The position numbers and the translations under genes were made by a program. From a virus: a DNA stretch of 40,249 nucleotides. The notes below the pieces were generated by a model, which was not told the DNA's origin, made no database searches, and worked only from the letters and a program-made list of their open reading frames with translations. Position 1 is the stretch's first letter. Each line of letters starts with the position of its first letter. Below are positions 7,544-40,249 of this stretch, in pieces. The stretch lies in the IMG/VR virus record IMGVR_UViG_3300012936_005227, positions 1-40,249 of that record. One strand, written 5' to 3'.

Positions 7544-8039
7544 TCACGGCGATGTAATATTCTCGGAAGAGGACGCCATTGATTTGATTTATAAAAATCC
7601 AGAGTTTGATATTTCGAAACTATATTTTCACGACATAGAAAAATACTCTGATAGTCTCAAACAACTAGGTCTAGACCTACCTGTTATACAAACAGCACCA
7701 AAACGCATCAAACCAACAGAGTTTGACAAAGTCAATTGTGAGAAATGGCACATGCCTGACAAGTATTACCAAATAAATGTTCTACAGTGGTTGCTAGATA
7801 GGTGTCAAAACGATGAAGAAAAGATGAGAGTGCAAATGGAATACGACCTGTTTGAGAAAAAGGACTTTAGACGTGTATTACAATTTTTAATATACTTCAT
7901 AGACACACTCAGAGCGAACAACATAGTATGGGGTGTGGGTAGAGGATCGAGTGTGGCAAGTTTTTGCTTGTTTCTTATAGGTGTACACAAGATCAATCCA
8001 TTGTTGTACAATTTAGATATCACCGAGTTTTTGAGATGA
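7518..8039 (+). CDS. Stand-alone fragment related to the DNA polymerase III alpha (PolC/DnaE) palm
   Basis: 173 residues. Residues 138-173 (WGVGRGSSVASFCLFLIG, then INPLLYNLDITEFLR) match the conserved palm segment of bacterial DNA polymerase III alpha, 'GxGRGSxxxSLVxYxLGIxxxxPLxYxLxFxRFLN'. The Gly-Ser of that motif contacts the incoming nucleotide. The protein stops exactly where the family continues into the PDxDxDF motif bearing two catalytic aspartates, so it cannot polymerise DNA by itself. It overlaps the gene before by 26 nt. It could be a nucleotide-binding or polymerase-modulating protein, or a domesticated remnant. Confidence 0.6.
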   Translation: MAEKTKINDHGDVIFSEEDAIDLIYKNPEFDISKLYFHDIEKYSDSLKQLGLDLPVIQTAPKRIKPTEFDKVNCEKWHMPDKYYQINVLQWLLDRCQNDEEKMRVQMEYDLFEKKDFRRVLQFLIYFIDTLRANNIVWGVGRGSSVASFCLFLIGVHKINPLLYNLDITEFLR

Positions 8040-8067
8040 TAAGTAATAGTAATAGGAGCATATTATT

Positions 8068-8511
8068 ATGGTAGCAAGAGCACCGAGAAAAAGAATGTAT
8101 AGAACCATGCAAGGACGTATGGTCGATATAGAAAAACTCAGATCGGCCAACGAGTCTGTACAGGCAGTTGGAAACATGAATGTTAACGCAAGAGGTGATG
8201 TATTGGGAGCAGGCGGAAAAGTGATCACTCCAAAAGAGACTGTGATTAGGAAGTATTATGAACAGCCAAAAGGAATGGTAAGTGATACTCCCTTAAAAAG
8301 CAAACCTATGCCGGCACCTAAAGTTGAAGCCAAACCACAGGTGCAGAAGATGACTCCTGTAGCGGCGAAGCCGGTGGAAGTCAAACCAGCACCGAAAAAA
8401 GAACCATCTAAGCCGGTAGAAACGGCCAAACCAGTCGAGACTTTTAAACCTAAAACCGCAGATGTCACTGCCAAAAAAGGTATTGATGCGGCTCTTGACG
8501 GACTAGAATAA
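8068..8511 (+). CDS. Conserved phage protein with Pro/Lys/Ala-rich tail
   Basis: 147 residues, preceded by taggag. The N-terminal half is ordered and strongly patterned (GRMVDIEKLRSANESV, then GNMNVNARGDVLGAGGKV), a combination I associate with conserved but unnamed proteins in marine T4-like phages. Residues about 78-130 are a low-complexity Pro/Lys/Ala/Val linker, and the end (GIDAALDGLE) is a short acidic helix. Function unknown; the linker suggests a tether. The -35 box of the next promoter lies inside its 3' end. Confidence 0.6.
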   Translation: MVARAPRKRMYRTMQGRMVDIEKLRSANESVQAVGNMNVNARGDVLGAGGKVITPKETVIRKYYEQPKGMVSDTPLKSKPMPAPKVEAKPQVQKMTPVAAKPVEVKPAPKKEPSKPVETAKPVETFKPKTADVTAKKGIDAALDGLE

Positions 8512-8523
8512 ATCTTATATAAT
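8495..8523 (+). promoter_or_regulatory. Sigma70-like promoter for the co-chaperonin gene
   Basis: TTGACG at 8495-8500, 17-bp spacer, perfect TATAAT at 8518-8523. The ATG at 8532 begins 8 nt after the -10 box, so the expected transcript has about 2 nt of leader and no Shine-Dalgarno. Probably an early or middle promoter read by host holoenzyme. Confidence 0.7.
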
Positions 8524-8531
8524 ACTTCTAT

Positions 8532-8975
8532 ATGGGACAGATAGAAGACTTACAAGCAAAAGGTTTTGGATCACACGGTGGTAAGCAGTACACCGTAGAG
8601 AATGATATCACACCATTGAAAAAGAGAGTGTTGGTATCTGATATGCAATTCGGAGCCACCAAATCGAAAGGTGGTATAATAATCCTAGATGATGATGGCA
8701 CAGAAGCAGGTATACACCCACGTTGGGCGAAAGTGTATGCAGTGGGTGATCAACAAGAAGACGTTCAAGTTGGCCAATGGGTTCTGGTCGCACACGGTCG
8801 TTGGAGCAGGGCACTGAAAGTCAAAAAGAAAGATGTTGAATTAGAAGTTAGGATGATAGACGAGAATGATATATTATTGTTGTCAGATGATGAGCCAGAG
8901 TTCAACAACAGGCAGGCCGGCTACATCAACACAGGCGGAATGCAACAGATGACTTCTCTGCCGGGGAATGATTAA
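8532..8975 (+). CDS. GroES-like co-chaperonin (functional equivalent of T4 gp31)
   Basis: 147 residues against about 97 for GroES and 111 for gp31. The GroES fold is visible in order: ITPLKKRVLVSDMQF (first strand), a mobile-loop region around GATKSKGGIIILDD, KVYAVGDQQEDVQVGQWVLV (the 'VxAVGxGxxxxxVKVGDxVLF' block), and DENDILLLSDDE (the C-terminal 'ExDILAVL' strand). Known phage GroES-like proteins redirect the host GroEL chamber to fold the major capsid protein. The extra 20-residue head and 25-residue tail are of unknown use. Confidence 0.75.
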   Translation: MGQIEDLQAKGFGSHGGKQYTVENDITPLKKRVLVSDMQFGATKSKGGIIILDDDGTEAGIHPRWAKVYAVGDQQEDVQVGQWVLVAHGRWSRALKVKKKDVELEVRMIDENDILLLSDDEPEFNNRQAGYINTGGMQQMTSLPGND

Positions 8976-9216
8976 AAGATCACACACCTGTTACGTCTGT
9001 AAAAAAACTTTCGACAACGCAATTTACTGGTATGATAGTCTACATGACACAAAATATGATAAAAGAATTATTAGGCCGTTTTGTGGACCACAATGTGCAA
9101 ATAAATTTAGGGACATATCAGATGTCAACGACTACCCACGTAGGTCACCCTTGCCACGTGGAGAACAATGGAACATTATTAGTGATATAGATTACATCGA
9201 ATATGAAACAGATTAA
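8968..9216 (+). CDS. Small zinc-ribbon protein
   Basis: 82 residues, overlapping the co-chaperonin gene by 8 nt (AATGATTAA). Four cysteines in two pairs, CYVCKKTF and FCGPQCANKF, with 30 residues between, form a plausible zinc-binding treble-clef or ribbon. The remainder is charged and ends in an acidic tail (DYIEYETD). No enzymatic motif. A nucleic-acid or protein-binding role is plausible but not shown. Confidence 0.6.
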   Translation: MIKRSHTCYVCKKTFDNAIYWYDSLHDTKYDKRIIRPFCGPQCANKFRDISDVNDYPRRSPLPRGEQWNIISDIDYIEYETD

Positions 9217-9592
9217 AATTAAAAAAGTAAAAGTTGAAATAGACAAACTTGTCACAATGGCTGAAATGGGATTGGGTGTTGAACGTCCACTTAATAAAGA
9301 AAAACGTGGATGGATAGCAAAACTTAAGAAGGAGGGTGCTTGGGATCCTATACTGGTCACCCCAATAAAAGACTCAGGATACTATCTACTAACAGATGGG
9401 TGGCATCGAGTTCAGGCCGCAAAAGGATTGAAAAGAAAAACAATCAATGCATTACAACTTCCGGCAAATGCTGGCCTAAGTATGGCAAAGGCAAACAAGA
9501 TATTGCGTGACATTGACAGAGAATATGGTTTTAAACTGCATTGTAGTGATATTATTGGACATTGGGCCATGATGGAAACACTTCTAGAGTAG
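9203..9592 (+). CDS. ParB/sulfiredoxin-fold domain protein
   Basis: 129 residues, overlapping the zinc-ribbon gene by 14 nt. The segment WDPILVTPIKDSGYYLLTDG followed by WHRVQAAKGL matches the ParB-like nuclease/sulfiredoxin superfamily core 'PIxVxxxxxxYxLxDGxHRxxAAKxLG', with the DGxHR nucleotide-binding motif near residues 68-72. No helix-turn-helix for parS binding is evident, so this is not a partitioning ParB. Stand-alone members act as nucleases, CTPases or kinases. Next to a repair endonuclease, a DNA-metabolism role is likely. Confidence 0.6.
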   Translation: MKQIKIKKVKVEIDKLVTMAEMGLGVERPLNKEKRGWIAKLKKEGAWDPILVTPIKDSGYYLLTDGWHRVQAAKGLKRKTINALQLPANAGLSMAKANKILRDIDREYGFKLHCSDIIGHWAMMETLLE

Positions 9593-9617
9593 ACATTATA
9601 TTATAATCTGTTATAAT
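9590..9617 (+). promoter_or_regulatory. Sigma70-like promoter for the UV endonuclease gene
   Basis: TAGACA at 9590-9595, 16-bp spacer, TATAAT at 9612-9617. The ATG at 9623 follows after 5 nt, predicting a leaderless message for the repair/replication genes. Confidence 0.6.
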
Positions 9618-9622
9618 AAAGC

Positions 9623-10666
9623 ATGGTACAACGTTTTGGTTTTTGTTGCAAATGGCTGAACTCTGAAAAGGAGTTTGGTGGCATGAAAGTCAACGCCAAG
9701 GATAGAGATCTAAATGGTAGATCCACCACAATGCGTTGGCTGAGAGAACATCCAGAAGACGCAGTGCAAAGACAGTGGGATATAATGAATCACAACGCCA
9801 CTGCCGCTAGAAAGTTGGTCCAACGTGTTGGTAGTTTACCACCCGAACGTAGGATGGTCAGACTTGGTAGTGAGATGTTGCAAGGCTACACAGAAGCAAA
9901 TTGGCAAGACTGGTGGCAACAACCACACATACAAGATCACTGTGAAAGATTATTTTCACCAGTTGGCGAAATGGCACGTAAGTTGGATGTCAAAGTAAGT
10001 TTCCATCCAGGACAATTTTGTGTTTTGAGTAGTGAAAGTGAAGACATTAGAAAAAGAAGCATCGATGAATTTGAATATCACGTAGACATGGCACGTTGGA
10101 TGGGATTTGGCAAAAGTTTCCAAGACGGTTGCAAGATAAATGTACACATCTCAGGCAGACTAGGACCACAAGGAATCATAGATGCACTGCCAAAACTATC
10201 ACCAGAAGCACGTAACCTTATTACTATAGAAAATGACGAGATGGGACATGGACTCGAAAAAAGTTTAGAACTAGAAAAACACCTTGCACTTGTTCTCGAC
10301 ATACACCATCATTGGATTAGAGATGAAGAATACATAGAAGCAACAGATGACAGAGTTAAGAGAGTAATAGACAGTTGGCGTGGACAGAGGCCTAGTATGC
10401 ATTACTCATATTCCAGAGACGAACATCTAGCAGTTGCCGGTCTTGGTGACAAGACACATACAGAGATGCACAACATCAAGGACCTATTAGAACGTGGCTG
10501 TAAAAAACAAAAACTTAGAGCACATTCTGATCTGTTACCAAACAAAAAAGCAAATGACTGGGCGTTGTCGTTCTCAGAACACTTTGATATACAGGTAGAA
10601 GCCAAAGGTAAAAACATGGCCACCGAACAATTATATAGACAAGCAAAGGAAACTTCTGTAATATAG
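9623..10666 (+). CDS. uvsE: UV damage endonuclease (UvdE/UvsE family)
   Basis: 347 residues, the usual length of the family. The TIM-barrel metal-site motifs occur in order: SFHPGQF (about 126-132), INVHISGR (172-179), ITIENDE (200-206), LDIHHHW (225-231), MHYSYSRDEH (259-268) and AHSDLLPN. These His/Glu/Asp residues bind the metal cluster that cleaves 5' of cyclobutane dimers and (6-4) photoproducts. UvdE-family repair enzymes are plausible in sunlit-ocean phages. It starts a short unit with the clamp-loader gene, 5 nt downstream. Confidence 0.85.
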   Translation: MVQRFGFCCKWLNSEKEFGGMKVNAKDRDLNGRSTTMRWLREHPEDAVQRQWDIMNHNATAARKLVQRVGSLPPERRMVRLGSEMLQGYTEANWQDWWQQPHIQDHCERLFSPVGEMARKLDVKVSFHPGQFCVLSSESEDIRKRSIDEFEYHVDMARWMGFGKSFQDGCKINVHISGRLGPQGIIDALPKLSPEARNLITIENDEMGHGLEKSLELEKHLALVLDIHHHWIRDEEYIEATDDRVKRVIDSWRGQRPSMHYSYSRDEHLAVAGLGDKTHTEMHNIKDLLERGCKKQKLRAHSDLLPNKKANDWALSFSEHFDIQVEAKGKNMATEQLYRQAKETSVI

Positions 10667-20857: not shown

Positions 20858-21076
20858 ATGCAAACAGTAATAAAAGTAATAGCAGAACACCTTGATGTGG
20901 CAGAGAGCAAAGTAACACCCGAGGCACATTTAGTAGACGACTTAGGAGCAGATCCGTTTGATACAATAGAATTGTGCATACAAGTTGAGAAGGCTACAGG
21001 TGTAAAAATTTCAGAAGACGATGGTGACAAAGTACAAACCGTGCAAGATCTAATCAACCTAGTGGAGAAAAAATAA
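20858..21076 (+). CDS. Acyl-carrier-protein-like protein lacking the phosphopantetheine serine
   Basis: 72 residues, ACP length. The family core is plain: HLVDDLGADPFDTIELCIQV then EKATGVKISEDD. ACPs have D-S-L at the 4'-phosphopantetheine site (DLGADSLDTVEL in E. coli); here it reads D32-P33-F34, codons gat ccg ttt, so the attachment serine is proline. The protein should therefore not carry an acyl chain. It might mimic apo-ACP to bind ACP partners. It sits 1 nt after the gene before, and its stop overlaps the start of the nuclease gene (TAATG). Confidence 0.75.
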   Translation: MQTVIKVIAEHLDVAESKVTPEAHLVDDLGADPFDTIELCIQVEKATGVKISEDDGDKVQTVQDLINLVEKK

Positions 21077-28689: not shown

Positions 28690-28872
28690 ATGAACGACAA
28701 AGACTTAGAACAGATCAACACGGTTGATGTGAATATCACGGCGGAATCAATAGATGCCCACGTGATTTGCCTGAGGGAGAATGGATACAAGATATTCAAA
28801 TCCTTTTCATTATATACAAGATACACTTTATTTTTCGTATTGGGTGCTACCATTATGGGAGTTATTATATGA
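28690..28872 (+). CDS. Small membrane protein preceding the subtilase gene (60 aa)
   Basis: An acidic N-terminal 35 residues (MNDKDLEQINTVDVNITAES) and one C-terminal membrane segment (YTLFFVLGATIMGVII). Its TGA overlaps the ATG of the subtilase gene (ATGA), so translation is probably coupled. No homologue recognised. It might aid export or anchoring of the next protein, or regulate its translation; both are guesses. Confidence 0.55.
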   Translation: MNDKDLEQINTVDVNITAESIDAHVICLRENGYKIFKSFSLYTRYTLFFVLGATIMGVII

Positions 28873-31800
28873 AAATTAAATCAAAGTTGAAGAACACCGT
28901 ACTCGCTGGTTTGGCAGGTTTATCACTTACTGCTTGTGGTGGCGGTGGCGGAGGAGGTGCAGTTGGAACCGTTGGTGATTTTATTGAGAATGATCTAACA
29001 AATCTTTCAGGATCTGCAACACTTGTCAGTTCATACAGCACTTTGCTATCTGACTTTCAGTCAGTAATATCTAGCGGAGATATAAGTGCAATACAAGGTG
29101 TGATCACTGGACCAGACGCAACAGACATAGCACAAGCCAACACATTACTAACACAATTAGAAACTGCTCAAGCACTTTGGAATCAGACAGAAGATTTAAT
29201 CAATAACCAAAGCGACAGTGAAAAATACACAATTTATAATTCAGAATCATTCAAAGAAGCACATGCGGCCATGCTATACTTACAGAACCATGTGAAGCCT
29301 GTGATACAAAAGGTTGCAAACGGAAACACCATCACACTGGCAGACTACAACCTTGTATCAAAACAATCTAAAGCAAATGAGATTATCGAACAGGAAAAAA
29401 ATTCAACTTCAAGTGCCTATGCTGATACAAAGAAAATAAAAAGCACTGAAGTTGTCAACAACGACACGAGTGAAAGCACTGACGCAACAGGAAGTTCAAC
29501 AATAAGTTATACAGATTGGACTACAATCTATGCTGGCGGTGGAGACGAAACGAGAACCAAAACCACCACGACTACGAACATAAGAACCACTGTGACCACA
29601 AGGTGCACTTTTACTAGAACAACTTTCCTAAACAATAGCACATCTGATGGAGCACAAACTTGCACCGTGATTAATACAACGACTGCAGATTTAGATCCAA
29701 CAATTACTACTGAAACAGAAACAAGGACAGGTGATAATCCTGTTACTGAGACAGTTGATTTAGAACCAACTGTGACAACAGAAACTGAATCTAGTGCAAA
29801 TTACACAGAGACAACATACACAGATGCAGATAGCACTACAACGGAAACAGATGAGGGTAGTGCCACAACAAACACTGCTAACAGAGATGTCACTACAACC
29901 ACAGATCACGGAGACAACACATCAACGGTTACGATCATAAGGTATGTAGACACGACAGTGACAACTCCAATTACAACAAAAGTTTACAGGACTAGGCATT
30001 ACACAGATGTTGTAAAAAAAGATACAAGAACTATTACAACAACAACACCGAGACAACAATTAACATACAAAGATGGCACTACAGAAATAGTAAATGGCTC
30101 TGCAACGGTGGTCACAGGTGACTGGTCAACCACACAGGTAAGTGAGTCGACTAGATCAGAAAACATATTACAAAGTGAAACTACCTCTAACCAGGTTGTG
30201 ACGACTAGTGATTCTGGCACACAGATAAGCACACAATTAGTTTCAAACGCATATACTGATGATGATATCAACTTGGGTACGGTGACTGCAAACATGAGTT
30301 CTACTGTTTCTGATCACCAGACAGCAGAATACAATAGTAATCATGGATTGGGAATGATAAATGCCGCAGATGCCTATGCAAGAGGATGGACGGGTGAAGG
30401 TGCGGTGCTTGGTGTAATAGATACTTGGCAAGACACAGATCATGAAAAACTAGACGGGAAGTATCTATTTTACAAGGACTATGACATGTATAACAACACA
30501 GTCAATGAAGGTGCACAAGGACATGGAACTTTCGTTGCTTCGATCATTGCAGGTAAAAGGGACGGAGACACTCTAAACTCAGACGGTAGATTAACAACAG
30601 GTGACTACACAACTTCAAACACCTATGTGAACGGAAACCCGGTAACACAATACACATTAAGCAAAAATAACGACATGCACGGTGTTGCATTTAATTCACA
30701 GTTGGTAGGAGCCAACGTAGACAGATACAGCAGTGGTGGTATATCCAAATCTTCGGCACAGAAGGCTCTACATGATTTTGCTAAATTGAAGTCACCAACA
30801 TCGGATGGTGGACAGGAAATGAATATAGTGGCTGTGAATATGAGTTTCAACACACCATCATTGTTTTATGATTCAAATGGATCCACAGTCACACAACTAT
30901 CAGATGGCACTTACAATGCAAGTGAGATCATAAACAAGATTCAAGGAAATGGTTATGGAGATGGCTTGTATTGGAAGATAGCCACAGACAATGACATAAT
31001 ACTTGTAAACTCTGCAGGTAACTATGGATTCGCTCATGCGGGTGATCCTGGGATATGGGCAGTAGAAACAGACTCCAATGGCAATCTTGTGCTAGGAGGC
31101 AAGATGGTTATTGTGGGAAACTGGGATGGTACTAGTGTTTCTGGTAACAAAGCAGGACATGTTTGCCTTGACATAAACACAGCCAACAATACATGTAACG
31201 ATACACACAGACTTTCAGATTTCTACATACTTGCACCAGGCACAAATATTACATCTGCAATAAGCAACGATAGATATACATCAGGAAGTGGTACGTCTTA
31301 TGCGGCGCCACACGTTACAGGAGCATTTGGTGTATTGAATCAGATGTGGCCATACATGTCAGGTGATAAACTTGTTAAACTTGTAATGAACACCGCAGAT
31401 AAAAATCTATCCGGTTACGATGTAAACATACACGGACAAGGTTTACTAGACCTAGACGAAGCAACAAAACCACAAGGTGCGATTGGACTTGCAACGTCGG
31501 GCAGAGTTGATCATCCTACCGTAAGTTTGAACAACACTTATTACTCAACAGGAACGTCACTACCATCAAGCCTGTATAATCTAAAGATAATGGTGCTTGA
31601 CGACTATGACAGAAACTATTACATAGATCTTGGATCTAGTTTTGTGGTACAAGACAAAAGAAAGTTCTCTGATGTACAAATGTTGGTAGAAAACAGAAAC
31701 ACTTTCCTACCACATCAGCAGATGTACGGATCGTTTGCTCAAGGTGGACAATATGACCTAGCAAAGAACTATAACTTTGGTTTTTACACTGGCGAAAACG

Positions 31801-32567
31801 GCAGTGGCGACTTCTCGCTCAATGTAGGAAAAGATTTTTATTTCAACAACAAGTTCAAACTGAAAACGTCTTTAGGACACATGAGTGAACAGGACACATG
31901 GTTGGGCAATGAATCCGATGGGGTATTGGCAGTGGGAGACAACAATGGGACGACATCAGCAAGTATTGGCGTTGCATATCAATTGGGCAACAATGTTTTG
32001 AGCCTCGATTACTCTAAAGGTAAAACAAATGTCAATACAGTGGACAACAGTCTTATTAAATCATTCTCAGACATAGAAACAGAATCTTACAGGTTGGCGT
32101 ATGAAATACACAAAGATACGCACACAACTTTCGGTTGGTCGTTCTCACTTCCAAGTCATATAACATCGGGTTCGATGGATTTGGAAGTAGCCGAAAGTGT
32201 TAATCTAGACGGAACGATTAATTACACCGATATCAACAGTGACCTCACACAAAGTACAAAAGAGAAGAACATCGGTTTCTACTATAGCCACAAGCCAGAG
32301 CATACATTTGACACAGGCATTAATTTCACGGCAGAGTACAGAATGGACAAATCAGGTGTTGCTAATAACGACGGTGTAGAAGTAGGAATGAATATTGTTA
32401 AAAAGTTCGCAGGCAGTTGTAAGTTTTTATGGATGAAAAATCCTAAATGTTTTGACAAAGACGGCAACATGAAATCTAACTTGTTTAGCAATGGCACAGA
32501 CAACGCAACAAAACACGGATTGGTGTACGATTTAGAAACAGATAAATTTGTACCAATAAAGAAATAA
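28869..32567 (+). CDS. Lipoprotein subtilisin-like (S8) protease with Thr-rich stalk and probable C-terminal beta-barrel
   Basis: 1232 residues from the ATG at 28869, the only start giving a signal: KNTVLAGLAGLSLTACGGGG, with lipobox LTAC and a Gly run. Residues about 30-210 are helical. About 215-460 is a Thr/Ser/Asp/Glu low-complexity stalk with unit DL(D/E)PT(I/V)TTETE. The S8 catalytic domain follows with an intact triad: GVIDTWQD (Asp518), GHGTFVASIIAG (His552) and SGSGTSYAAPHVTGA (Ser810), plus NSAGNYG (oxyanion Asn). The last 300 residues alternate aromatic/polar strands (YSHKPEHTFDTGINF, FTAEYRMDKSGV) like an autotransporter translocator. It resembles bacterial surface autotransporter proteases and was probably acquired from a host. 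Expressed from a sigma70-like promoter. Confidence 0.8.
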   Translation: MKIKSKLKNTVLAGLAGLSLTACGGGGGGGAVGTVGDFIENDLTNLSGSATLVSSYSTLLSDFQSVISSGDISAIQGVITGPDATDIAQANTLLTQLETAQALWNQTEDLINNQSDSEKYTIYNSESFKEAHAAMLYLQNHVKPVIQKVANGNTITLADYNLVSKQSKANEIIEQEKNSTSSAYADTKKIKSTEVVNNDTSESTDATGSSTISYTDWTTIYAGGGDETRTKTTTTTNIRTTVTTRCTFTRTTFLNNSTSDGAQTCTVINTTTADLDPTITTETETRTGDNPVTETVDLEPTVTTETESSANYTETTYTDADSTTTETDEGSATTNTANRDVTTTTDHGDNTSTVTIIRYVDTTVTTPITTKVYRTRHYTDVVKKDTRTITTTTPRQQLTYKDGTTEIVNGSATVVTGDWSTTQVSESTRSENILQSETTSNQVVTTSDSGTQISTQLVSNAYTDDDINLGTVTANMSSTVSDHQTAEYNSNHGLGMINAADAYARGWTGEGAVLGVIDTWQDTDHEKLDGKYLFYKDYDMYNNTVNEGAQGHGTFVASIIAGKRDGDTLNSDGRLTTGDYTTSNTYVNGNPVTQYTLSKNNDMHGVAFNSQLVGANVDRYSSGGISKSSAQKALHDFAKLKSPTSDGGQEMNIVAVNMSFNTPSLFYDSNGSTVTQLSDGTYNASEIINKIQGNGYGDGLYWKIATDNDIILVNSAGNYGFAHAGDPGIWAVETDSNGNLVLGGKMVIVGNWDGTSVSGNKAGHVCLDINTANNTCNDTHRLSDFYILAPGTNITSAISNDRYTSGSGTSYAAPHVTGAFGVLNQMWPYMSGDKLVKLVMNTADKNLSGYDVNIHGQGLLDLDEATKPQGAIGLATSGRVDHPTVSLNNTYYSTGTSLPSSLYNLKIMVLDDYDRNYYIDLGSSFVVQDKRKFSDVQMLVENRNTFLPHQQMYGSFAQGGQYDLAKNYNFGFYTGENGSGDFSLNVGKDFYFNNKFKLKTSLGHMSEQDTWLGNESDGVLAVGDNNGTTSASIGVAYQLGNNVLSLDYSKGKTNVNTVDNSLIKSFSDIETESYRLAYEIHKDTHTTFGWSFSLPSHITSGSMDLEVAESVNLDGTINYTDINSDLTQSTKEKNIGFYYSHKPEHTFDTGINFTAEYRMDKSGVANNDGVEVGMNIVKKFAGSCKFLWMKNPKCFDKDGNMKSNLFSNGTDNATKHGLVYDLETDKFVPIKK
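29510..30240 (+). repeat. Thr-rich low-complexity coding repeats in the subtilase gene
   Basis: About 240 codons in which Thr, Ser, Asp and Glu dominate, with ACA/ACT/ACG-type codons recurring and imperfect repeats such as DLDPTITTETE and DLEPTVTTETE. Probably an extended surface stalk; such DNA is prone to slippage and length variation. Confidence 0.6.
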
Positions 32568-33570: not shown

Positions 33571-33927
33571 ATGAGAGCATCACAATTTATAAATGAAAAT
33601 ATAGACTCAGACGCAGTAAACGAACTAGATACGTTCATCATGAACAATGAAGATCTGTATCGTAGACGTTTTATGCCTATCATATCTAACATCAAAAGAA
33701 AAATAAAAAAGAACGTGTACGACCATGAGAAAGCACAAAAACTTTGGATGTATCTAGTAGATGATGCCGCAAAAGAATATGTCAAGGAATATGGATCTAC
33801 ACAGGATGACGTGTCAAACATGTTCCCAAAAGAAACTAGACAGCAGGTAGCAAGAGTCATATCAGACAGAGAATTAGAAAATATAAAGCAAGGCGAATAC
33901 GATGTACCTCAGGGAACTGTTTCTTAA
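33571..33927 (+). CDS. Conserved phage protein with a capsid-targeting-like N-terminus (118 aa)
   Basis: Begins MRASQFINEN, close to the T4 internal-protein targeting sequence MKTYQEFIAE including the I-x-E cleavage-type site (I7-N-E9). The rest is helical (DLYRRRFMPIISNIKRKIKK; KLWMYLVDDAAKEYVKEYG), basic and soluble. Late promoter directly at the start. It may be an internal head protein. It overlaps the next gene by 26 bases. Family otherwise unnamed. Confidence 0.55.
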   Translation: MRASQFINENIDSDAVNELDTFIMNNEDLYRRRFMPIISNIKRKIKKNVYDHEKAQKLWMYLVDDAAKEYVKEYGSTQDDVSNMFPKETRQQVARVISDRELENIKQGEYDVPQGTVS

Positions 33928-35074
33928 GGAGGACGATCGTTCAACAGCAGTCTTTGCCTTTGGCCGATTTAATCCACCAACTATAGGACATAAAAAATTA
34001 TTAGACAAACTTGAGTCTATGGCTCAGCAAGTGAATGGCAAAGCATTCCTATTCCTATCACACAAACAAAACAATAAAACAGATCCACTTACACACAAAG
34101 AGAAAACAGACTACTTAAAAATGTTTTATCCTAACCTGGCAATAGGTGACCCGGGTGTTAAGACAATAATCCAAGCACTACAAAAAATACAAGCAGAGGG
34201 CAGAACAAGGATAGTCATGATTGCAGGATCCGACAGGGTAGTAGAATTCCAAAAATTACTTAACCAATATAATGGTAAACCTGACAAAGCCGGTAATGAA
34301 CTATACAAGTTTGATTACATAGACGTTGTAAGTGCTGGTGAGAGAGATCCAGACCAAGAAGGGGCATCAGGTGCCTCGGCATCAAAAGCCAGAGAACTTG
34401 CAAACAAAGGACAAGAACACGAATTTTCTAAAATCATAATGGGCGGAAACACTGGTAAAAAGTTATATGACATAATACAAGACAGACTTGGTAAGCAGAT
34501 TGACGAGAACAACAAAAAGTTGTATAATGAAAACATGGAAGACGCAAAACCTATTGTATATCTTGACATGGACGGGGTATTGGCCGATTTCTTCGGTGGT
34601 GTTGAATATCTTTATGGTGTCGATCATTGGAAAGAACTAACCAACGATAAAACAAAAGATTTGAAAAAACAGGTAATTGACAGAATCACCGGGACAGACT
34701 TTTTTGCAGTGTTGCCTAAATTTTCAACCGCTGACGCTTTAATAGACATGGTGAAAAAATTCACAGGTGGAAAGTTCAGCATCAACACATCACCTTTAAG
34801 AGGGGATCATGAAAATTCAGCAAAATACAAAAAAGTATGGATCTCTAAAAACATTGAGCAACCAGATGAAATTATCGTAACAGGCCGTAAAGAATCATAT
34901 GCCAAAGACAAAGGTACAGGCACACCAAATATTCTTATTGACGACAGACCTATCAACATACAGAGGTGGCAGGACGCTGGCGGATATGGAATACTATATC
35001 AAGCAAATAGAGACTCATTAGACAAAGTTAAGAAAGGACTAGAAGGATATGCCAAAATACAGCGGAATCAATAG
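33902..35074 (+). CDS. Nucleotidyltransferase (cytidylyltransferase-like) fused to a HAD/5'-nucleotidase-like domain
   Basis: 390 residues. The start MYLRELFLKEDD resembles a capsid-targeting sequence with L8-K-E10. Residues about 15-200 are an adenylyl/cytidylyltransferase: FGRFNPPTIGHKKL (HxGH-type motif) and SGASASKAREL (the SxSxxR motif). Residues about 218-390 are a HAD phosphatase of 5'(3')-deoxyribonucleotidase type: VYLDMDGVLADFF (nucleophile D-x-D), NTSPLRGDHEN and ILIDDRPINI. It could join and split nucleotide or NAD-type metabolites. Cyanophages have similar 'cytidylyltransferase' genes. Overlaps the genes on both sides. Confidence 0.7.
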   Translation: MYLRELFLKEDDRSTAVFAFGRFNPPTIGHKKLLDKLESMAQQVNGKAFLFLSHKQNNKTDPLTHKEKTDYLKMFYPNLAIGDPGVKTIIQALQKIQAEGRTRIVMIAGSDRVVEFQKLLNQYNGKPDKAGNELYKFDYIDVVSAGERDPDQEGASGASASKARELANKGQEHEFSKIIMGGNTGKKLYDIIQDRLGKQIDENNKKLYNENMEDAKPIVYLDMDGVLADFFGGVEYLYGVDHWKELTNDKTKDLKKQVIDRITGTDFFAVLPKFSTADALIDMVKKFTGGKFSINTSPLRGDHENSAKYKKVWISKNIEQPDEIIVTGRKESYAKDKGTGTPNILIDDRPINIQRWQDAGGYGILYQANRDSLDKVKKGLEGYAKIQRNQ

Positions 35075-35228
35075 ACCATACGCGGCAGGTGAGATAGAAA
35101 AAACTCCACAAGAAAAGCAAAGAGAACTTGATGAGAAGATGAAAAAGTTTTTAGCCAAGGGTGGAAAAGTTGAAAAAGTTAAAGCACACAAACCCACTAA
35201 AGAACAATTAAGAAGTTGGACCATTTAG
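35049..35228 (+). CDS. Small basic hypothetical protein (59 aa)
   Basis: ATG at 35049 inside the end of the nucleotidyltransferase gene (26-base overlap). Sequence: MPKYSGINRPYAAGEIEKTP, then a Lys-rich helix with FLAKGGKVEKVKAHKP and the end LRSWTI. It ends directly before the ATG at 35229. The tight packing supports a gene. Function unknown; the basic helix could contact nucleic acid. Confidence 0.55.
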   Translation: MPKYSGINRPYAAGEIEKTPQEKQRELDEKMKKFLAKGGKVEKVKAHKPTKEQLRSWTI

Positions 35229-35438
35229 ATGGACGAACTGGAGAGAATCAAACAACTAGCAGGTGTGGATAAACTGCCTAAAGATGATTCCATGGGCGAA
35301 AACCTATCGTATATAGGAACTAAAAAAGCACAATATCAAAGAAAACACAACATAAAACCGGGTACAGACGAGTGGTTTAAATTATGGTTTGCAAAGCCTA
35401 AACTCACTGGTGAAAACCCAATGCCAAAGAACAAATAA
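35229..35438 (+). CDS. Conserved small phage protein (69 aa)
   Basis: Starts immediately after the preceding stop. MDELERIKQLAGVDKLPKDD is followed by NLSYIGTKKAQYQRKHNIKP, GTDEWFKLWFAKPKLTGENP and a basic end. The pattern 'GTDxWFxLWFAxPxLTGENPM' recurs in marine T4-like phages without assigned function. Its stop codon forms part of the late promoter of the SOD gene. Confidence 0.6.
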   Translation: MDELERIKQLAGVDKLPKDDSMGENLSYIGTKKAQYQRKHNIKPGTDEWFKLWFAKPKLTGENPMPKNK

Positions 35439-35441
35439 ATA
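35434..35441 (+). promoter_or_regulatory. T4-type late promoter (AATAAATA) for the SOD gene
   Basis: Contains the TAA stop of the gene before and ends seven bases before the ATG at 35449; predicted leader about 2 nt. Confidence 0.65.
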
Positions 35442-35448
35442 CTCGCAT

Positions 35449-36003
35449 ATGCGAGCCACAGAATTCACAGAAACAAGTTGTCCTAGAACACGTGCAAAAG
35501 AGTGTTCTTGTAGCAAGGTTAAAAGCATTACCGAAGCACAGGACACCACGATTGCCCAGTGTGTATTAGAGCATTCTGACTCTGTTAAGGGGTCAATCCT
35601 GCTTATACAGGCACCAGGAACTCCAACTCTTATAAAAGGCACCATCACAGGACTAGAGCCAGGAAAACACGGCTTTCACATACACGAGTTTGGTGACATG
35701 AGTGATGGATGTAAATCAATGGGTGCCCATTACAATCCAGACGATGTACAACATGGGGACCTAGATGAAGGACACGTTGGCGACCTAGGCAACATAGAGG
35801 CAGATGAAAATGGTAAAGCGAATTTTTCAATCAAAGCAAGTAGAGTAGATCTGATAGGTGAACGTTCTGTTGTTGGTCGTGGCATAGTTGTACACTCCGA
35901 TGAGGACGACCTAGGCAAAGGTGGCGACGAAGAAAGTCTAAAAACAGGAAACGCAGGTGATAGACTGGCATGTGGTGTAATTACATTGAGGTCAACGGAA
36001 TGA
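35449..36003 (+). CDS. sodC: Cu/Zn superoxide dismutase with unusual N-terminal extension
   Basis: 184 residues; the frame extends upstream but the late promoter fixes the start at 35449. The catalytic domain (about 34-180) is complete: HGFHIHEFGD (Cu His77, His79), GAHYNP (His94), HG (His102), HVGD (His109, Asp112), VVHSDEDDLG (Cu His149), TGNAGDRLACGV (Arg172), and a probable disulfide Cys88-Cys175. There is no signal peptide. Instead residues 1-29 are MRATEFTETS, a Cys-rich stretch (C11, C19, C21) and SITE just before Ala30, looking like a capsid-targeting start and an I-x-E prohead-protease site. It converts superoxide to peroxide; possibly packaged cargo. Confidence 0.8.
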   Translation: MRATEFTETSCPRTRAKECSCSKVKSITEAQDTTIAQCVLEHSDSVKGSILLIQAPGTPTLIKGTITGLEPGKHGFHIHEFGDMSDGCKSMGAHYNPDDVQHGDLDEGHVGDLGNIEADENGKANFSIKASRVDLIGERSVVGRGIVVHSDEDDLGKGGDEESLKTGNAGDRLACGVITLRSTE

Positions 36004-36941
36004 GATTTATAATTTTTAACGGAACATTAAAGCCTGACGCAGAATCAAACACTAGTAAAGTTGTAGGCATGTTGAAACTTGCTTTTGAAAAACTAGGACA
36101 GGAATGTAAAGTTGTAACACTGCGAGATCTAAATTACGAAAGAGCAACAAAAGATGTTAAAGATGAATTGGCTCCACACATTATAGATATATTCAAATGT
36201 GACGGAGTAATATTTGCCACTCCTATTTGGTGGGGAGGACATGGCAGTTATATACAGACCATGTTTGAAAGATTAGATCCAATTTATAGTTGGTCCAAAG
36301 ACAATAAGTATCAACCATTCTACAACAAAGTTTTCGGCACGCTGGTGTCTGGCGGAGGCGATGGCTTCCAAAACATACATGGCAACTGCTATAGTTTTGC
36401 CGCTAACCTGGGGTTCACAATACCACCAAACTGCAACATAGAATCCAAAGCACAGGGCATGGAAGAAATATTAAAAGATGACGACACTGTGGCACAGGTA
36501 AAGAACTGTGCTATCAACATGACTGTGTGGGCAAGGATCCTTAAAGAAGGCAATCCAAGCAAACAGGCAAGGCACAGCACAGTCGATGTCAGTGCAGTGG
36601 GTGGCGAAACTGACTACGCATTCAGTGACGATCTAAATGAAGGCAAAAGAATTCCACGTAAAAAAGGACAAAAAAGAAAAAGCAAAAAACACTCAGACCT
36701 TTACACGGATGAAGATCCAAAAGGCACTATCCACGGATTAGGATTCAAAGACGAGGCGGCGGCAAGATCAAGCGTTGCTAAAATTAGAAAGTCCGGAAGG
36801 TCACACGCACACAAGATACAGGCGGCAGTTGCCATGGAGCAGAGAGCGAGAGCGGCTGGCAAAACAGGACCAGCGGCTATATATAGGAAATTTATTAACT
36901 CCATGAAAAAGAAAACAAAAGCAAAAAACAAGAAAAAATGA
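36000..36941 (+). CDS. Flavodoxin-like/NADPH-FMN-reductase domain fused to a basic phage module
   Basis: 313 residues from the ATG at 36000, overlapping the SOD stop (ATGA). Residues 1-200 are a flavodoxin-like fold: RFIIFNGTLKPDAESNTSKV (phosphate loop), GVIFATPIWWGGHGSYIQTM (the 'TPxWWGG' FMN-binding loop) and VFGTLVSGGGDG. Residues about 230-313 are a Lys-rich module, SDLYTDEDPKGTIHGLGF, SHAHKIQAAVAMEQRARAAG and AAIYRKFI, which I recall as a free-standing protein in many marine phages. A redox enzyme tethered to a DNA- or capsid-binding tail is the suggested reading. Confidence 0.65.
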   Translation: MRFIIFNGTLKPDAESNTSKVVGMLKLAFEKLGQECKVVTLRDLNYERATKDVKDELAPHIIDIFKCDGVIFATPIWWGGHGSYIQTMFERLDPIYSWSKDNKYQPFYNKVFGTLVSGGGDGFQNIHGNCYSFAANLGFTIPPNCNIESKAQGMEEILKDDDTVAQVKNCAINMTVWARILKEGNPSKQARHSTVDVSAVGGETDYAFSDDLNEGKRIPRKKGQKRKSKKHSDLYTDEDPKGTIHGLGFKDEAAARSSVAKIRKSGRSHAHKIQAAVAMEQRARAAGKTGPAAIYRKFINSMKKKTKAKNKKK

Positions 36942-37165
36942 AGATCATAGAAGTATTGACGAAATACGTCCACTCAGACGTAGATAAAATCCTTAAAAAA
37001 TATCAAAGACAGGCAAAAGGGAGAGCAACCATGGGATATCACTCCAGCATGGCCTATCCATACAAAGTAGAAGGCTGGAGCAAAAAGTATAAAAAATCAA
37101 TCAATTGTTCAAACCCCAAAGGATTTTCACAGAAGGCGCATTGTGCAGGTAGGAAAAAGAAATGA
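36938..37165 (+). CDS. Small basic Cys-containing protein with capsid-targeting-like start (75 aa)
   Basis: MKIIEVLTKYVHSD is followed by a basic middle and the module SINCSNPKGFSQKAHCAGRK. This Cys-x12-Cys block recurs at the ends of unrelated phage and virus proteins and may be a small metal or nucleic-acid-binding element. It overlaps neighbours by four bases on each side (ATGA), so it belongs to the SOD transcript. Very high Lys/Arg content. Confidence 0.55.
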   Translation: MKIIEVLTKYVHSDVDKILKKYQRQAKGRATMGYHSSMAYPYKVEGWSKKYKKSINCSNPKGFSQKAHCAGRKKK

Positions 37166-38097
37166 AAATTAAAGAATTCATAATCATGCCACAAACAATT
37201 AAACCAATGGGTCTTATACATAAACCAGGCACAGGACCTAACAACAGATTTGATTTCAAAAATGTAGGAAACAACAGAGGTAACGAAACAAAAGAAGCAC
37301 CGCCCGGAACCTACTTTACAAAGACAGGTAACCTTGTCAAAGGCACGCTGACAAAAGCGGCAAAAGAAAGAGGTGCACGAGAAACAGATCCAAAAGACAA
37401 ACAAAGATCAAAAGTGCCACCGGTGACACAAACCAATGAAGAAGAACATGGAGTTGATCTAAAACTACCCACAGGTCAAAAAATGATCTTACAAGCGGAT
37501 GATGATGAACACACGAGGGGACTTGTTGTTCAAAGTAATAAAGATGGTAGTTACGACACATATTACTGGTATGAGAATCCGGAAGAGCCAATGGCTATCG
37601 AAGTGAAGATAGATGGTGAGACTGTATCTAAAGATGCAAAAAATGTTCGTTGGGAATATCATCCTGAACTTGAGGAAGCAAGAGGTTCATGTTGGCATGG
37701 ATATCAACAAAAAGGTTACAAGAAAAAAGGTAATAAGATGGTTCCGAATTGTGTCAAAGAGGAAGCCGCAGGTGTTGGTATAATTACAAAACAAAACACA
37801 ACAGCAGATGTAAAACCAGGTGAAACAACGAGACAGGCAAACAAACTTGGCCTCGGCCTCACTAAAAAAGGTGTCCCTGCCAAGTCAATGAGAGAACAAT
37901 GGGAAGAATTCAAAGAAAACTTTGCTGATGGAAAACGTAAAGGCAAAAGTCGACCAGGACGTGTGAAACGTGCAGGCGCAAGTTGTAAAGGCTCTGTTAC
38001 AAGTCTAAGAGCAAAGGCAAAAAAAGCATCAGGCGAACGTGCAAAGATGTACCACTGGTGTGCCAACATGAAGTCAGGACGTAAGAAGAAAAAATAA
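37162..38097 (+). CDS. Multi-module basic phage protein with capsid-targeting-like start (311 aa)
   Basis: Begins MKIKEFIIMPQ. A central acidic domain (about 95-170; GVDLKLPTGQKMILQADDD, DTYYWYENPEEP) is flanked by basic short modules: SCWHGYQQKGYKKKGNKMVP (then NCVKEE) near 177, and at the end a GKSRPGRVKRAGASCKGSVT block, then LRAKAKKASGERAKMYHWC and an Lys/Arg tail. I recall both basic modules as recurring in marine phage proteins. Charge pattern suggests DNA contact; no enzymatic motif. Confidence 0.6.
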   Translation: MKIKEFIIMPQTIKPMGLIHKPGTGPNNRFDFKNVGNNRGNETKEAPPGTYFTKTGNLVKGTLTKAAKERGARETDPKDKQRSKVPPVTQTNEEEHGVDLKLPTGQKMILQADDDEHTRGLVVQSNKDGSYDTYYWYENPEEPMAIEVKIDGETVSKDAKNVRWEYHPELEEARGSCWHGYQQKGYKKKGNKMVPNCVKEEAAGVGIITKQNTTADVKPGETTRQANKLGLGLTKKGVPAKSMREQWEEFKENFADGKRKGKSRPGRVKRAGASCKGSVTSLRAKAKKASGERAKMYHWCANMKSGRKKKK

Positions 38098-38107
38098 TTA
38101 CTTCTAT

Positions 38108-38872
38108 ATGAAGTACAAACTTGTTCTAGGAATCGAATATAAACCATATAAAAAACACGCTGATATTAACGTGCATTTGCATGACAGGTGCATAGATGTT
38201 TTCTCACTTACCGATAAACATCCAGCATTAAACTCCGTCCGAGACAAAATAGATGAAAAATGGTATCACCACTTCGACTGTTACAACAGACTGATGAGTC
38301 AAAATTATAGAATGGCATGGAATGATTTACCAAAACCAAGTCTATATAAAATATATGACCTAGAGGAAAAAGATCTAAAAGGCTCTCTTACATTAGAGGT
38401 TATGAATCCAGATAGCAATTACACAAACGGATTTATGAGCAAGAGTTCATTGATGAGGTTTCCAGTAATAGCATTGATTCCCGAATATCTTCTAGAAGAC
38501 GATTCCAAAAATTTAGTAAGGACAATGATAGATATCGATGACGGATTTGGCATATCTTTATGGCGTACAAAAAGGCCAGAAGTTGCGGAATTTTGGCGTT
38601 TGGGTTGGCCATGCGTGAACGTGTTTAATGTGAAACGTAATGACAACAAACACGAGGAAAGTGGGCCTAAAACATTTGACTGGTGGCTTGGCGGTAACTT
38701 TACAATAGACTTGCCAATCAAAACAAAGTTCAAAACAAAGTTTTTGTCATGCAATCCAAATCCAGACATAGGATTTCCATTTACCGGGACAGCAAAAGAT
38801 TTGCTTATTAGCACATACAAACCCTTGCTAAATACCTATAAGGATGAAAATAAACGAAGTAATAATACGTAG
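38108..38872 (+). CDS. Conserved hypothetical phage protein (254 aa)
   Basis: Soluble alpha/beta protein: MKYKLVLGIEYKPYKKHADI, DEKWYHHFDCYNRLMSQNYR, GFMSKSSLMRFPVIALIPEY, WRLGWPCVNVFNVKRND, CNPNPDIGFPFTGTAKDLL. No motif recognised, no signal. Its end overlaps the next gene and that gene's late promoter by 29 bases. Confidence 0.5.
   Translation: MKYKLVLGIEYKPYKKHADINVHLHDRCIDVFSLTDKHPALNSVRDKIDEKWYHHFDCYNRLMSQNYRMAWNDLPKPSLYKIYDLEEKDLKGSLTLEVMNPDSNYTNGFMSKSSLMRFPVIALIPEYLLEDDSKNLVRTMIDIDDGFGISLWRTKRPEVAEFWRLGWPCVNVFNVKRNDNKHEESGPKTFDWWLGGNFTIDLPIKTKFKTKFLSCNPNPDIGFPFTGTAKDLLISTYKPLLNTYKDENKRSNNT
38829..38834 (+). promoter_or_regulatory. Weak T4-type late promoter (cTAAATA)
   Basis: Six core bases TAAATA inside the end of the preceding gene, nine bases before the ATG at 38844, with ataagg close to the start. 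Confidence 0.4.
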
Positions 38873-39110
38873 AGTACAGGAACAAGCCACGGCTGGAGCC
38901 ACTAGTGCTGGCAATATTGCAACTGTGGTCTCACCTCACATAGCAATCGGACGAGATAGATTCAGCAAATCCTTTACAGGGTCTCCAGGAAAATCAGGCA
39001 CAAAAGCACCAAAACTACCCAAAATTGTGCAACCGAAAAATCCTGATGGAACTGCCAAAGGTGCCCATAATCTAAAAGGCACAAGCCTATTTGGAGGTCC
39101 TATATCATAA
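38844..39110 (+). CDS. Small Gly/Ser/Lys-rich protein with capsid-targeting-like start (88 aa)
   Basis: MKINEVIIRRVQEQ is followed by TAGATSAGNIATVVSPHIAI and a Pro/Lys/Gly-rich, probably disordered tail with KSGTKAPKLPKIVQPKNPDG. The 'GATSAGNIATV...KNPDGTAK' pattern recurs in marine T4-like phages. A possible V-Q-E cut site lies at 11-13. Late promoter close to the start. A minor internal virion protein is suggested, not shown. Confidence 0.55.
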   Translation: MKINEVIIRRVQEQATAGATSAGNIATVVSPHIAIGRDRFSKSFTGSPGKSGTKAPKLPKIVQPKNPDGTAKGAHNLKGTSLFGGPIS

Positions 39111-39271
39111 TGGATACATTGATTTTAAAACAAGAATGGATTGTAAAGTGTCTTAATTGCGGAAATGACGCACATGACGGGCCGCTGTTTAGAAAAGAAA
39201 AAGATTATGACGGCAGAGAGTATCAAATAGAAGTGTGTAAGCAGTGTAGATACGAAGAAGAGGCCGCATAA
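39110..39271 (+). CDS. Small zinc-ribbon protein (53 aa)
   Basis: Start overlaps the preceding stop by one base (TAATG). KCLNCGNDAHD and EVCKQCRYEEEAA form two CxxC pairs 25 residues apart, a plain zinc ribbon. Its TAA stop is part of the next late promoter. Function unknown; possible nucleic-acid or protein binder. Confidence 0.6.
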   Translation: MDTLILKQEWIVKCLNCGNDAHDGPLFRKEKDYDGREYQIEVCKQCRYEEEAA

Positions 39272-39274
39272 ATA
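39268..39274 (+). promoter_or_regulatory. T4-type late promoter (cATAAATA)
   Basis: Includes the stop codon of the zinc-ribbon gene and ends eight bases before the ATG at 39283; predicted leader about 3 nt. Confidence 0.65.
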
Positions 39275-39282
39275 TTGATATT

Positions 39283-39996
39283 ATGAGATTCCACGAATTT
39301 GAAAAAGCAGAAGGATCTACACTTGCAGTAAGGACAATCAACAGATATGCTGATGAAGTTGGCAAGGATTCAATGGATTACGAAATGTTTAAAAAATCCG
39401 CTGAGTTGTTAGACAAACAGATGCTTAAATCTTTGGCACAACACATAGAAAAATCAGACACTGCTCCAAGAGAATATGTAATGAAAAAAATAGCAGATCA
39501 CGATCCAGAGACATTCAAAAAAATGTACGGTGATCAAGAGGGATATCTGTCTATAATGAAACCACGAAAAGATTTGACAGACGGCGAGATTGAAGAAGGA
39601 GCAGAGATGGTAGCATATCACAAGCATCCAAAAGATCAAAATCTATGGACGTTTCCAGACGCATACAAGGACGACGAAGAAGTTGAAAGTCCATACATGA
39701 GCAACGCAAGTATGAGACAGTTCTTGGACGCCCTAGGATATGACAGTGATTTCGAAGACATGAGTCCTGTGCCAGCAAAAGAATTCATAGCGAGGACCAC
39801 ACAATGGTTACAGAAGAACATAGGTAAACCATCACCAGAAGAGCCTACAACCATTGACCAAAGTCCAGGTGGTGCGACAATGATAGGTGGTGGCAAACCA
39901 GAGGGTTACATGAACCAGATGGTGAAAGCACACAACGAGATAGCGAGGAAAGTTTTAGCAAAATATCCTGAGGTAACACACTTCGGTTTTAATTAA
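39283..39996 (+). CDS. Hypothetical phage protein with capsid-targeting-like start (237 aa)
   Basis: Begins MRFHEFEKAEGSTL, again M-R-x-x-E-F. The next 100 residues are helical (YEMFKKSAELLDKQMLKSLA; QHIEKSDTAPREYVMKKIAD), with acidic and Lys-rich segments and a C-terminal Gly/Pro-rich linker (DQSPGGATMIGGGKPEG) before a final helix. No enzymatic motif. Late promoter at the start. Candidate internal head protein by N-terminus and location. Confidence 0.5.
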   Translation: MRFHEFEKAEGSTLAVRTINRYADEVGKDSMDYEMFKKSAELLDKQMLKSLAQHIEKSDTAPREYVMKKIADHDPETFKKMYGDQEGYLSIMKPRKDLTDGEIEEGAEMVAYHKHPKDQNLWTFPDAYKDDEEVESPYMSNASMRQFLDALGYDSDFEDMSPVPAKEFIARTTQWLQKNIGKPSPEEPTTIDQSPGGATMIGGGKPEGYMNQMVKAHNEIARKVLAKYPEVTHFGFN

Positions 39997-39997
39997 T

Positions 39998-40249
39998 ATG
40001 AAGATAAACGAATTACACAACCAACCAGTTCAGCCAGACACATACGAGGCTTCAATGGCCTTGAACCAATTGTTGAAGATTGGAAAACACGCAATCAAGA
40101 TACACAACATGATAGACGATGCGGCGGAGATGGAGTCATGGGTCGCAAAGAAGATTGACCTAGCGGGCGACTACGTTAAAAAAGTGCATGGCTATATGCA
40201 GGGTGAGAAGGCCGGCCTCTACGATGATGGTGGCTTGACGGAAGACGCA
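39998..40249 (+). CDS. Conserved phage protein with capsid-targeting-like start, partial at window end
   Basis: 84 codons are present; the end lies beyond the window. MKINELHNQPVQP is followed by a helical domain, LNQLLKIGKHAIKIHNMIDD then AEMESWVAKKIDLAGDYVKK and VHGYMQG. The 'ExExWVxxKIxxAxDYxxxV' helix pair recurs in marine T4-like phages, usually behind a similar MKxxEL start. Probably a virion or internal capsid protein; inferred. Confidence 0.55.
   Translation, partial: MKINELHNQPVQPDTYEASMALNQLLKIGKHAIKIHNMIDDAAEMESWVAKKIDLAGDYVKKVHGYMQGEKAGLYDDGGLTEDA

Follow-up and report, generated by a model that had tools for sequence, protein, structure and literature searches.

The window analysed here comprises the complete virus record IMGVR_UViG_3300012936_005227 (40249 bases), whose sequence marks it as part of the genome of a marine T4-like (Kyanoviridae-like) myovirus. 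From position 33571 to its end, the window carries an island of overlapping genes arranged as a tight operon, which quite probably represents a cassette of internal head proteins targeted to the prohead by an N-terminal tag resembling the T4 capsid-targeting sequence (CTS), but one residue shorter. The window also codes for clamp-loader-like and clamp-like proteins, tail-fibre-like repeats and metabolic genes (gene names were assigned by eye, except where families are cited).

Protein starts of the form M-[KRY]-x-x-[EQ]-[FLV] are found in 8 of the 13 genes called from 33571 on and in none of the 45 others (hypergeometric p = 6.7e-7, a flattering value, since the motif was picked after looking and includes one Y). 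A preliminary description of the window had counted eight of the last twelve genes; the eight N-termini (33571, 33902, 35449, 36938, 37162, 38844, 39283 and 39998) and their near absence elsewhere were borne out, while the total was corrected to 13. Due to the post hoc choice of the motif, the fair tests are those in relatives, among which the island content differs strongly. Viral contigs contain 20 close loci for the nucleotidyltransferase-HAD (NTase-HAD) protein of the island and at least 80 for its superoxide dismutase (SOD). In the near-complete relative G001 (196,581 bases), which has a portal, a prohead protease and the major capsid protein gp23, the motif begins 5 of 17 island genes versus 1 of 203 genes elsewhere, or 9 of 17 versus 2 of 203 when Ile is allowed at position 6. 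Several of these G001 island genes lack an obvious counterpart in the window (MRVYEV, MKIYEITEG, MKINEVTGITEE and MKINEIV), and a motif gene outside the island (MKLMEFF) is the neighbour of the portal gene (PF07230); gp67 and gp68 occupy this part of the head module in T4. In the four contigs in which the NTase was located, the motif occurs in 30 of 110 genes within 10 kb of it versus 4 of 505 beyond (G008-G014 were left out, the NTase having been missed there by the gene caller or the pattern). Across the window and 14 relatives, the motif is present at 3-14% of gene starts versus 0-0.4% of internal Met residues. The motif residues are spelled by many synonymous codons, which argues for a signal at the protein rather than the DNA level. 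The island genes are as follows.

33571..33927, + strand: helical protein of 118 amino acids (aa) with leader MRASQFINE-N, supported by homologues
33902..35074, + strand: NTase-HAD fusion with leader MYLRELFLKE-D (phrog_3041, 4.6e-52; phrog_2643, 3.5e-25; PF01467)
35049..35228, + strand: MPKYSGIN protein of 59 aa, without the leader motif, conserved in G001
35229..35438, + strand: 69-aa protein with start MDELERIKQLAGV, similar to the end (ELTNIRKLAGI) of the scaffold protein predicted in G001
35449..36003, + strand: Cu/Zn SOD with 29-residue leader MRATEFTE..CPRTRAKECSC..SITE-A (PF00080, 1.5e-45)
36000..36941, + strand: FMN-reductase-like domain with a basic C-terminal tail, without the leader motif (PF03358, 1.5e-11; phrog_727 on the tail)
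36938..37165, + strand: basic protein of 75 aa with MKIIEV start (isoelectric point, pI, 10.1 or 9.7)
37162..38097, + strand: basic modular protein of 311 aa with MKIKEF start and Cys-containing basic modules (phrog_4359, phrog_727 and others, function unknown for all)
38108..38872, + strand: 254-aa protein, without the leader motif and with no family match in profile searches
38844..39110, + strand: candidate gp23-arm mimic reading MKINEVIIRRVQE-QATAGATSAGNIA, then a basic tail, with MKINEV start (likeness to G001 gp23)
39110..39271, + strand: CxxC protein of 53 aa, without the leader motif (gene call)
39283..39996, + strand: 237-aa protein with MRFHEF start, supported by homologues
39998..40249, + strand: start of a longer protein truncated by the contig end, with MKINEL start (G001 homologue of 554 aa, MKIKEF)

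Both enzymes named in the preliminary description were thus matched to families (NTase-HAD to phrog_3041 and PF01467, SOD to PF00080), while its mention of basic proteins was half right: the predicted pI values of the eight motif proteins are, in order, 5.2, 8.8, 5.0, 10.1, 9.7, 10.8, 5.1 and 5.2, i.e. 8.8-10.8 in four and 5.0-5.2 in the other four. The idea that targeted proteins are simply basic was rejected on account of these mixed values. The tag is disordered in both AlphaFold models made, with the fold starting right after it: residues 1-8 are disordered (pLDDT<50) in the 33571 protein, which is folded from residue 13, and residues 1-11 in the 39283 protein, in which M1, R2, E5 and F6 are invariant across 7 homologues. 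A structure search found no credible PDB counterpart for the 33571 model, which matched uncharacterised viral proteins only; the 39283 model was poor, and its search gave nothing useful.

The motif is coupled to sites of the kind cut by the T4 prohead protease gp21, which cleaves after L/I-x-E (PMC9026906). Among 73 distinct motif N-termini (near-identical ones collapsed), 24 have (I/L)-x-E with the Glu at positions 8-10 versus 39 of 1064 other genes, and within-sequence shuffles of residues 7-16 gave a mean of 5.3 against the 24 observed; the effect is large despite related contigs, which deflate the p-values. Different proteins combine motif and site, as in MKIKDFITE, MRIKDFVNE, MRFTDFAITE, MRATEFLIE and MLVKELLLE. 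In the window, L/I-x-E is found in the 33571, 33902 and SOD proteins and V-x-E in the 38844 protein, and the three sites claimed earlier are exact (I7-N8-E9, L8-K9-E10 and, before A30 of the SOD, I27-T28-E29). Homologues of the 33571 protein, one diverged sequence excepted, keep Glu9 at P1 and I, L or V at P3, with a variable P1'. The T4 control N-termini include MKTYQEFIAE of IPII and IPIII, MKTFKEF then TITE of IPI, MLKEQLIAE of gp22, MAKINELLRE of gp24 and MELITELFDE of Alt; the island start MKINEL has its core, KINEL, in common with gp24. G001 has a gp21-family prohead protease (Peptidase_S77, PF03420, 3.7e-26), the head module lying outside the window fragment.

The 38844 protein reads as a copy of the cleavage site and mature arm of the G001 major capsid protein, the only gp23 detected in a PF07068 search of the 14 relative records: where the island protein has MKINEVIIRRVQE-QATAGATSAGNIA, G001 gp23 reads KKYLSE-QATAGATSAGNVA (score 72, z 10.3). 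The P1 Glu is invariant in 7 homologues. The protein is 88 aa long, shows no HK97-fold shell domain and is similar to gp23 over about 18 residues at the cleavage site, which marks it as a mimic rather than a member of the gp23 family. Counterparts were found in the cyanophages S-SM1 (SSM1_197), S-SCSM1 (ORF97) and S-CREM2 (gp160), each being the single best gp23-arm match among the scored proteins of its genome. These are like the gp23s of cyanophages and unlike that of G001, while the reverse holds for the 38844 protein; within the cyanophages, the phage's own gp23 is not always the best match. The cyanophage mimics copy the mature arm without the tag or site, and those of S-CREM2 and S-SCSM1 are among the proteins of purified virions, the S-SCSM1 one by the annotation of its record.

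The SOD start, an ATG inside a longer open frame (35389), is confirmed by homologues. The SOD is likely an active enzyme, because all metal-ligand motifs are present (HIH77, GAHYNP92, H102, GHVGDLGN108, VVH147 and GNAGDRLACG167). Its leader shows no hydrophobic signal peptide. Just ahead of the SOD domain, [ILV]-x-E is found in 29 of 29 non-redundant homologue leaders, with I or L in 27, as counted by our own reading; for a few leaders, the domain boundary is placed one residue off. The spacing between tag and site varies among the leaders, and SOD domains fused within longer proteins also keep the site. The predicted removable leaders share a conserved CPRTKAxxCxC (e.g. window 35479-35511), a possible means of binding Cu or Zn or of holding the SOD immature. 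In two relatives (G004, 39306-47791; G005, 32684-41775), tagged proteins of 2222-2354 aa, possibly giant packaged proteins, directly precede SOD fusions of 606-676 aa.

According to published cyanophage proteomes, purified S-SM1 virions contained the citidylyltransferase T4-GC190 (PMC3037559), a cytidylyltransferase is among the 52 virion proteins tabulated for S-CREM2 (PMC10665884), and the NMNAT of S-SCSM1 was detected in virions (PMC9602691). The S-SM1 protein (SSM1_190) begins MKKFSAFLNE-A and the S-SCSM1 NMNAT MKSFLQFLKE-A. With a motif fixed before the N-termini of S-CREM2 and S-SCSM1 were read, matches in S-CREM2 comprised 4 of 28 detected non-structural proteins versus 1 of 167 undetected ones (p=0.0016) and 0 of 24 structural ones; the four are a SAM hydrolase (MKDFDSFLEE), gp13 (MKDLHSFLTE), an APH-like kinase (MKRFDAFLTE) and the cytidylyltransferase (MKNFSSFLTE). 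The N-termini of gp15, gp136 and Cas9 look similar by eye, post hoc. The Cas9-like gp12 of S-CREM2 (7704-10313 in record L190), reported in virions, has LRFASFMAE-A within its first 25 residues, so that this CRISPR nuclease possibly bears a capsid tag. The mazG-primase region of S-SCSM1, which includes NMNAT and the gp23-arm mimic, is richer in virion-flagged genes (7/15 versus 41/267, p=0.006, the record annotation flagging 48 genes and the paper stating 45), while the region around the S-CREM2 NTase, with four virion proteins in eight (p=0.09), is suggestive only.

The preliminary interpretation, a set of proteins packaged with the DNA and injected at infection, is partly supported. Its capsid-targeting part is well supported by confinement of the motif, its coupling to the site, the protease of G001, the copied gp23 site and the detection by mass spectrometry of the NTase and the gp23-arm mimic in purified cyanophage virions, but several points weigh against it. 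Half of the eight proteins (36938, 37162, 39283 and 39998) show no clear (I/L)-x-E close to their start in the window, not all eight are basic, and the dependence among homologous genes and among related contigs makes the p-values too small. Hydrophobic residues are found at positions 4 and 7 of the T4 CTS, where they matter most for targeting, and at positions 3 and 6 of the island tag. The pre-set motif had five matches in S-SCSM1, one of them detected in virions (p=0.61), so that the S-CREM2 enrichment was not replicated, and all proteome support stems from cyanophages outside the phage's own clade. The authors of both proteome papers, moreover, allow enzymes as contaminants and leave cargo versus carry-over open (PMC10665884, PMC9602691). 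That the virion enzymes are such carry-over, which would void this support, nevertheless seems very unlikely, given that four motif proteins were detected in S-CREM2 and the motif occurs in only one of its 167 undetected proteins, and that the S-CREM2 list of 52 virion proteins lacks enzymes without a leader, e.g. DNA polymerase and ribonucleotide reductase.

Other explanations concern the tag itself. The tagged proteins might be core or minor capsid components that aid head assembly and either remain in the head or exit as fragments, packaged but not delivered to the host, as the motif on the gene beside the G001 portal, the similar N-termini of T4 gp22 and gp24 and the tie between the gp23-arm mimic and the capsid protein would suggest. 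The presence of an SOD with an intact active site and of an NTase-HAD, the strong variability of island content, unlike that of assembly genes, and the ejection of T4 internal proteins carrying such a tag (PMC9026906) make this explanation rather unlikely. An equally doubtful alternative restricts packaging to genes with both tag and site, site-less MKINEL-type starts serving otherwise, e.g. as an interaction tag of a host-takeover complex; it is favoured by the four site-less genes of the window and by the 49 of 73 distinct motif N-termini without (I/L)-x-E at 8-10. In T4, however, targeting by the CTS is separable from processing (PMC9026906), so site-less members may also be packaged, and here genes with and without a site stand in the same operon and begin with the same motif, with orthologues varying in their site-like residues (MRFHEFEKAE of 39283 versus MRFSEFKED). 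It is highly improbable that the motif is no targeting signal but reflects A-rich start codons or a translation-start context shared by one co-transcribed operon. Although MK- starts are common in AT-rich genomes and the island is a tight operon of overlapping genes, positions 2, 3, 5 and 6 keep their residue classes while using many synonymous codons, the motif is missing from five members of the operon and absent from the rest of the window, and it is coupled to (I/L)-x-E and to virion detection in relatives.

In the mechanism proposed for prohead targeting, a short disordered N-terminal tag, M-[KR]-hydrophobic-x-[ED]-[FLIV], i.e. the T4 CTS shifted one residue towards the start, would dock cargo on the scaffold core during prohead assembly. 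A gp21-family protease would then cut a subset of the proteins after (I/L/V)-x-E, freeing the mature SOD, NTase-HAD, 33571 protein and gp23-arm mimic, and the mature proteins would stay with the DNA in the head. For this phage, docking, cutting and packaging are what we infer from the tag, the sites, their conservation and their confinement, all of which can be read in the sequence. More speculatively, the proteins might be ejected with the DNA, whereupon SOD could quench superoxide in the host, nucleotides or NAD could be the targets of NTase-HAD, and the basic Cys proteins could bind DNA.

Other observations concern the island and its surroundings. ELxxIKxLAG[IV], common to window 35229-35438, the predicted scaffold end and others (G001 62525-63589, 158836-160620 and 164959-165168), is possibly a second core-binding signal. 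Small basic Cys-containing modules swap partners among island proteins (window 36003-38097; G001 162639-163789): the tail WCANMKSG belongs to the FMN reductase in G001 but to 37162-38097 in the window, and one module weakly resembles DUF5872. Neither the second half of the window as a nucleotide query nor the 37162 protein in tblastn matched phage records. T4 late promoters (TATAAATA) number zero in the island and one in the whole window versus 2.3 expected, and so give no evidence on timing. Directly upstream of the island lies a 1232-aa subtilase (28869-32567; PF00082, residues 509-857) with a lipoprotein-like start (LTACGGGG) and a C-terminal part that appears autotransporter-like by eye. 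An acyl-carrier-like protein (20858-21076; PF00550, 2.3e-9) has DPF in place of the usual DSL phosphopantetheine motif and thus seems to lack the serine used for attachment.

Among known systems, the island is closest in its features to T4 IPI, IPII, IPIII and Alt (Mullaney and Black; PMC9026906), which have a short N-terminal tag with a hydrophobic-x-x-hydrophobic core and an acidic residue. T4 internal proteins also have an (I/L)-x-E site, as do some of the island proteins, and, like these, are unrelated, rapidly exchanged and partly basic cargo; in IPI, tag and site are apart, as in the SOD leader. In contrast to the T4 set, the island is a clustered cassette of at least eight genes with enzyme cargo (SOD, NTase-HAD), half of them without a site, and no homology of its cargo to the internal proteins was seen. 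As IPI-III are small and basic, whereas pI is 5.0-5.2 in four of the eight island proteins, the island proteins would work like T4 internal proteins rather than belong to them. T4 gp24 (MAKINELLRE) and gp22 (MLKEQLIAE) have similar N-termini but are capsid vertex and scaffold proteins, not cargo. In phage P1, an N-terminal signal of DarB directs defence cargo to the head, although the Dar proteins have no common consensus and use a different scaffold system (PMC9024508).

The cyanophage virion enzymes (cytidylyltransferase/NMNAT, SAM hydrolase, APH-like kinase and Cas9; PMC10665884, PMC9602691, PMC3037559, PMC9146016) are other cargo than that of the island, but include a homologous NTase near other virion proteins and the gp23-arm mimic, with a T4-like tag with FLxE that keeps the T4 register. 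In contrast to the island, no targeting sequence is named in the passages considered, and no SOD is among the proteins listed there. A readable tag and protease site turn the question of cargo versus contamination into a gene-by-gene prediction for these enzymes. If the proposed packaging is true, the products of some 'auxiliary metabolic genes' arrive ready-made instead of being expressed after infection, and an antioxidant enzyme joins the list of likely phage cargo. More broadly, and with somewhat less than even confidence, a class of marine T4-like phages may load its heads via the variant tag with an exchangeable enzyme kit, including an SOD acting at entry, plus a protein imitating the capsid arm. 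In a literature search that did not reach most subscription journals, no paper joined capsid targeting with cyanophages or pelagiphages, or the tag with Kyanoviridae virion enzymes. While CTS-directed cargo is already known from T4, new features here are a tag of shortened register, a densely packed cassette, an enzyme set that includes an SOD, a mimic of the capsid arm and a connection of the tag with the virion enzymes of Kyanoviridae.

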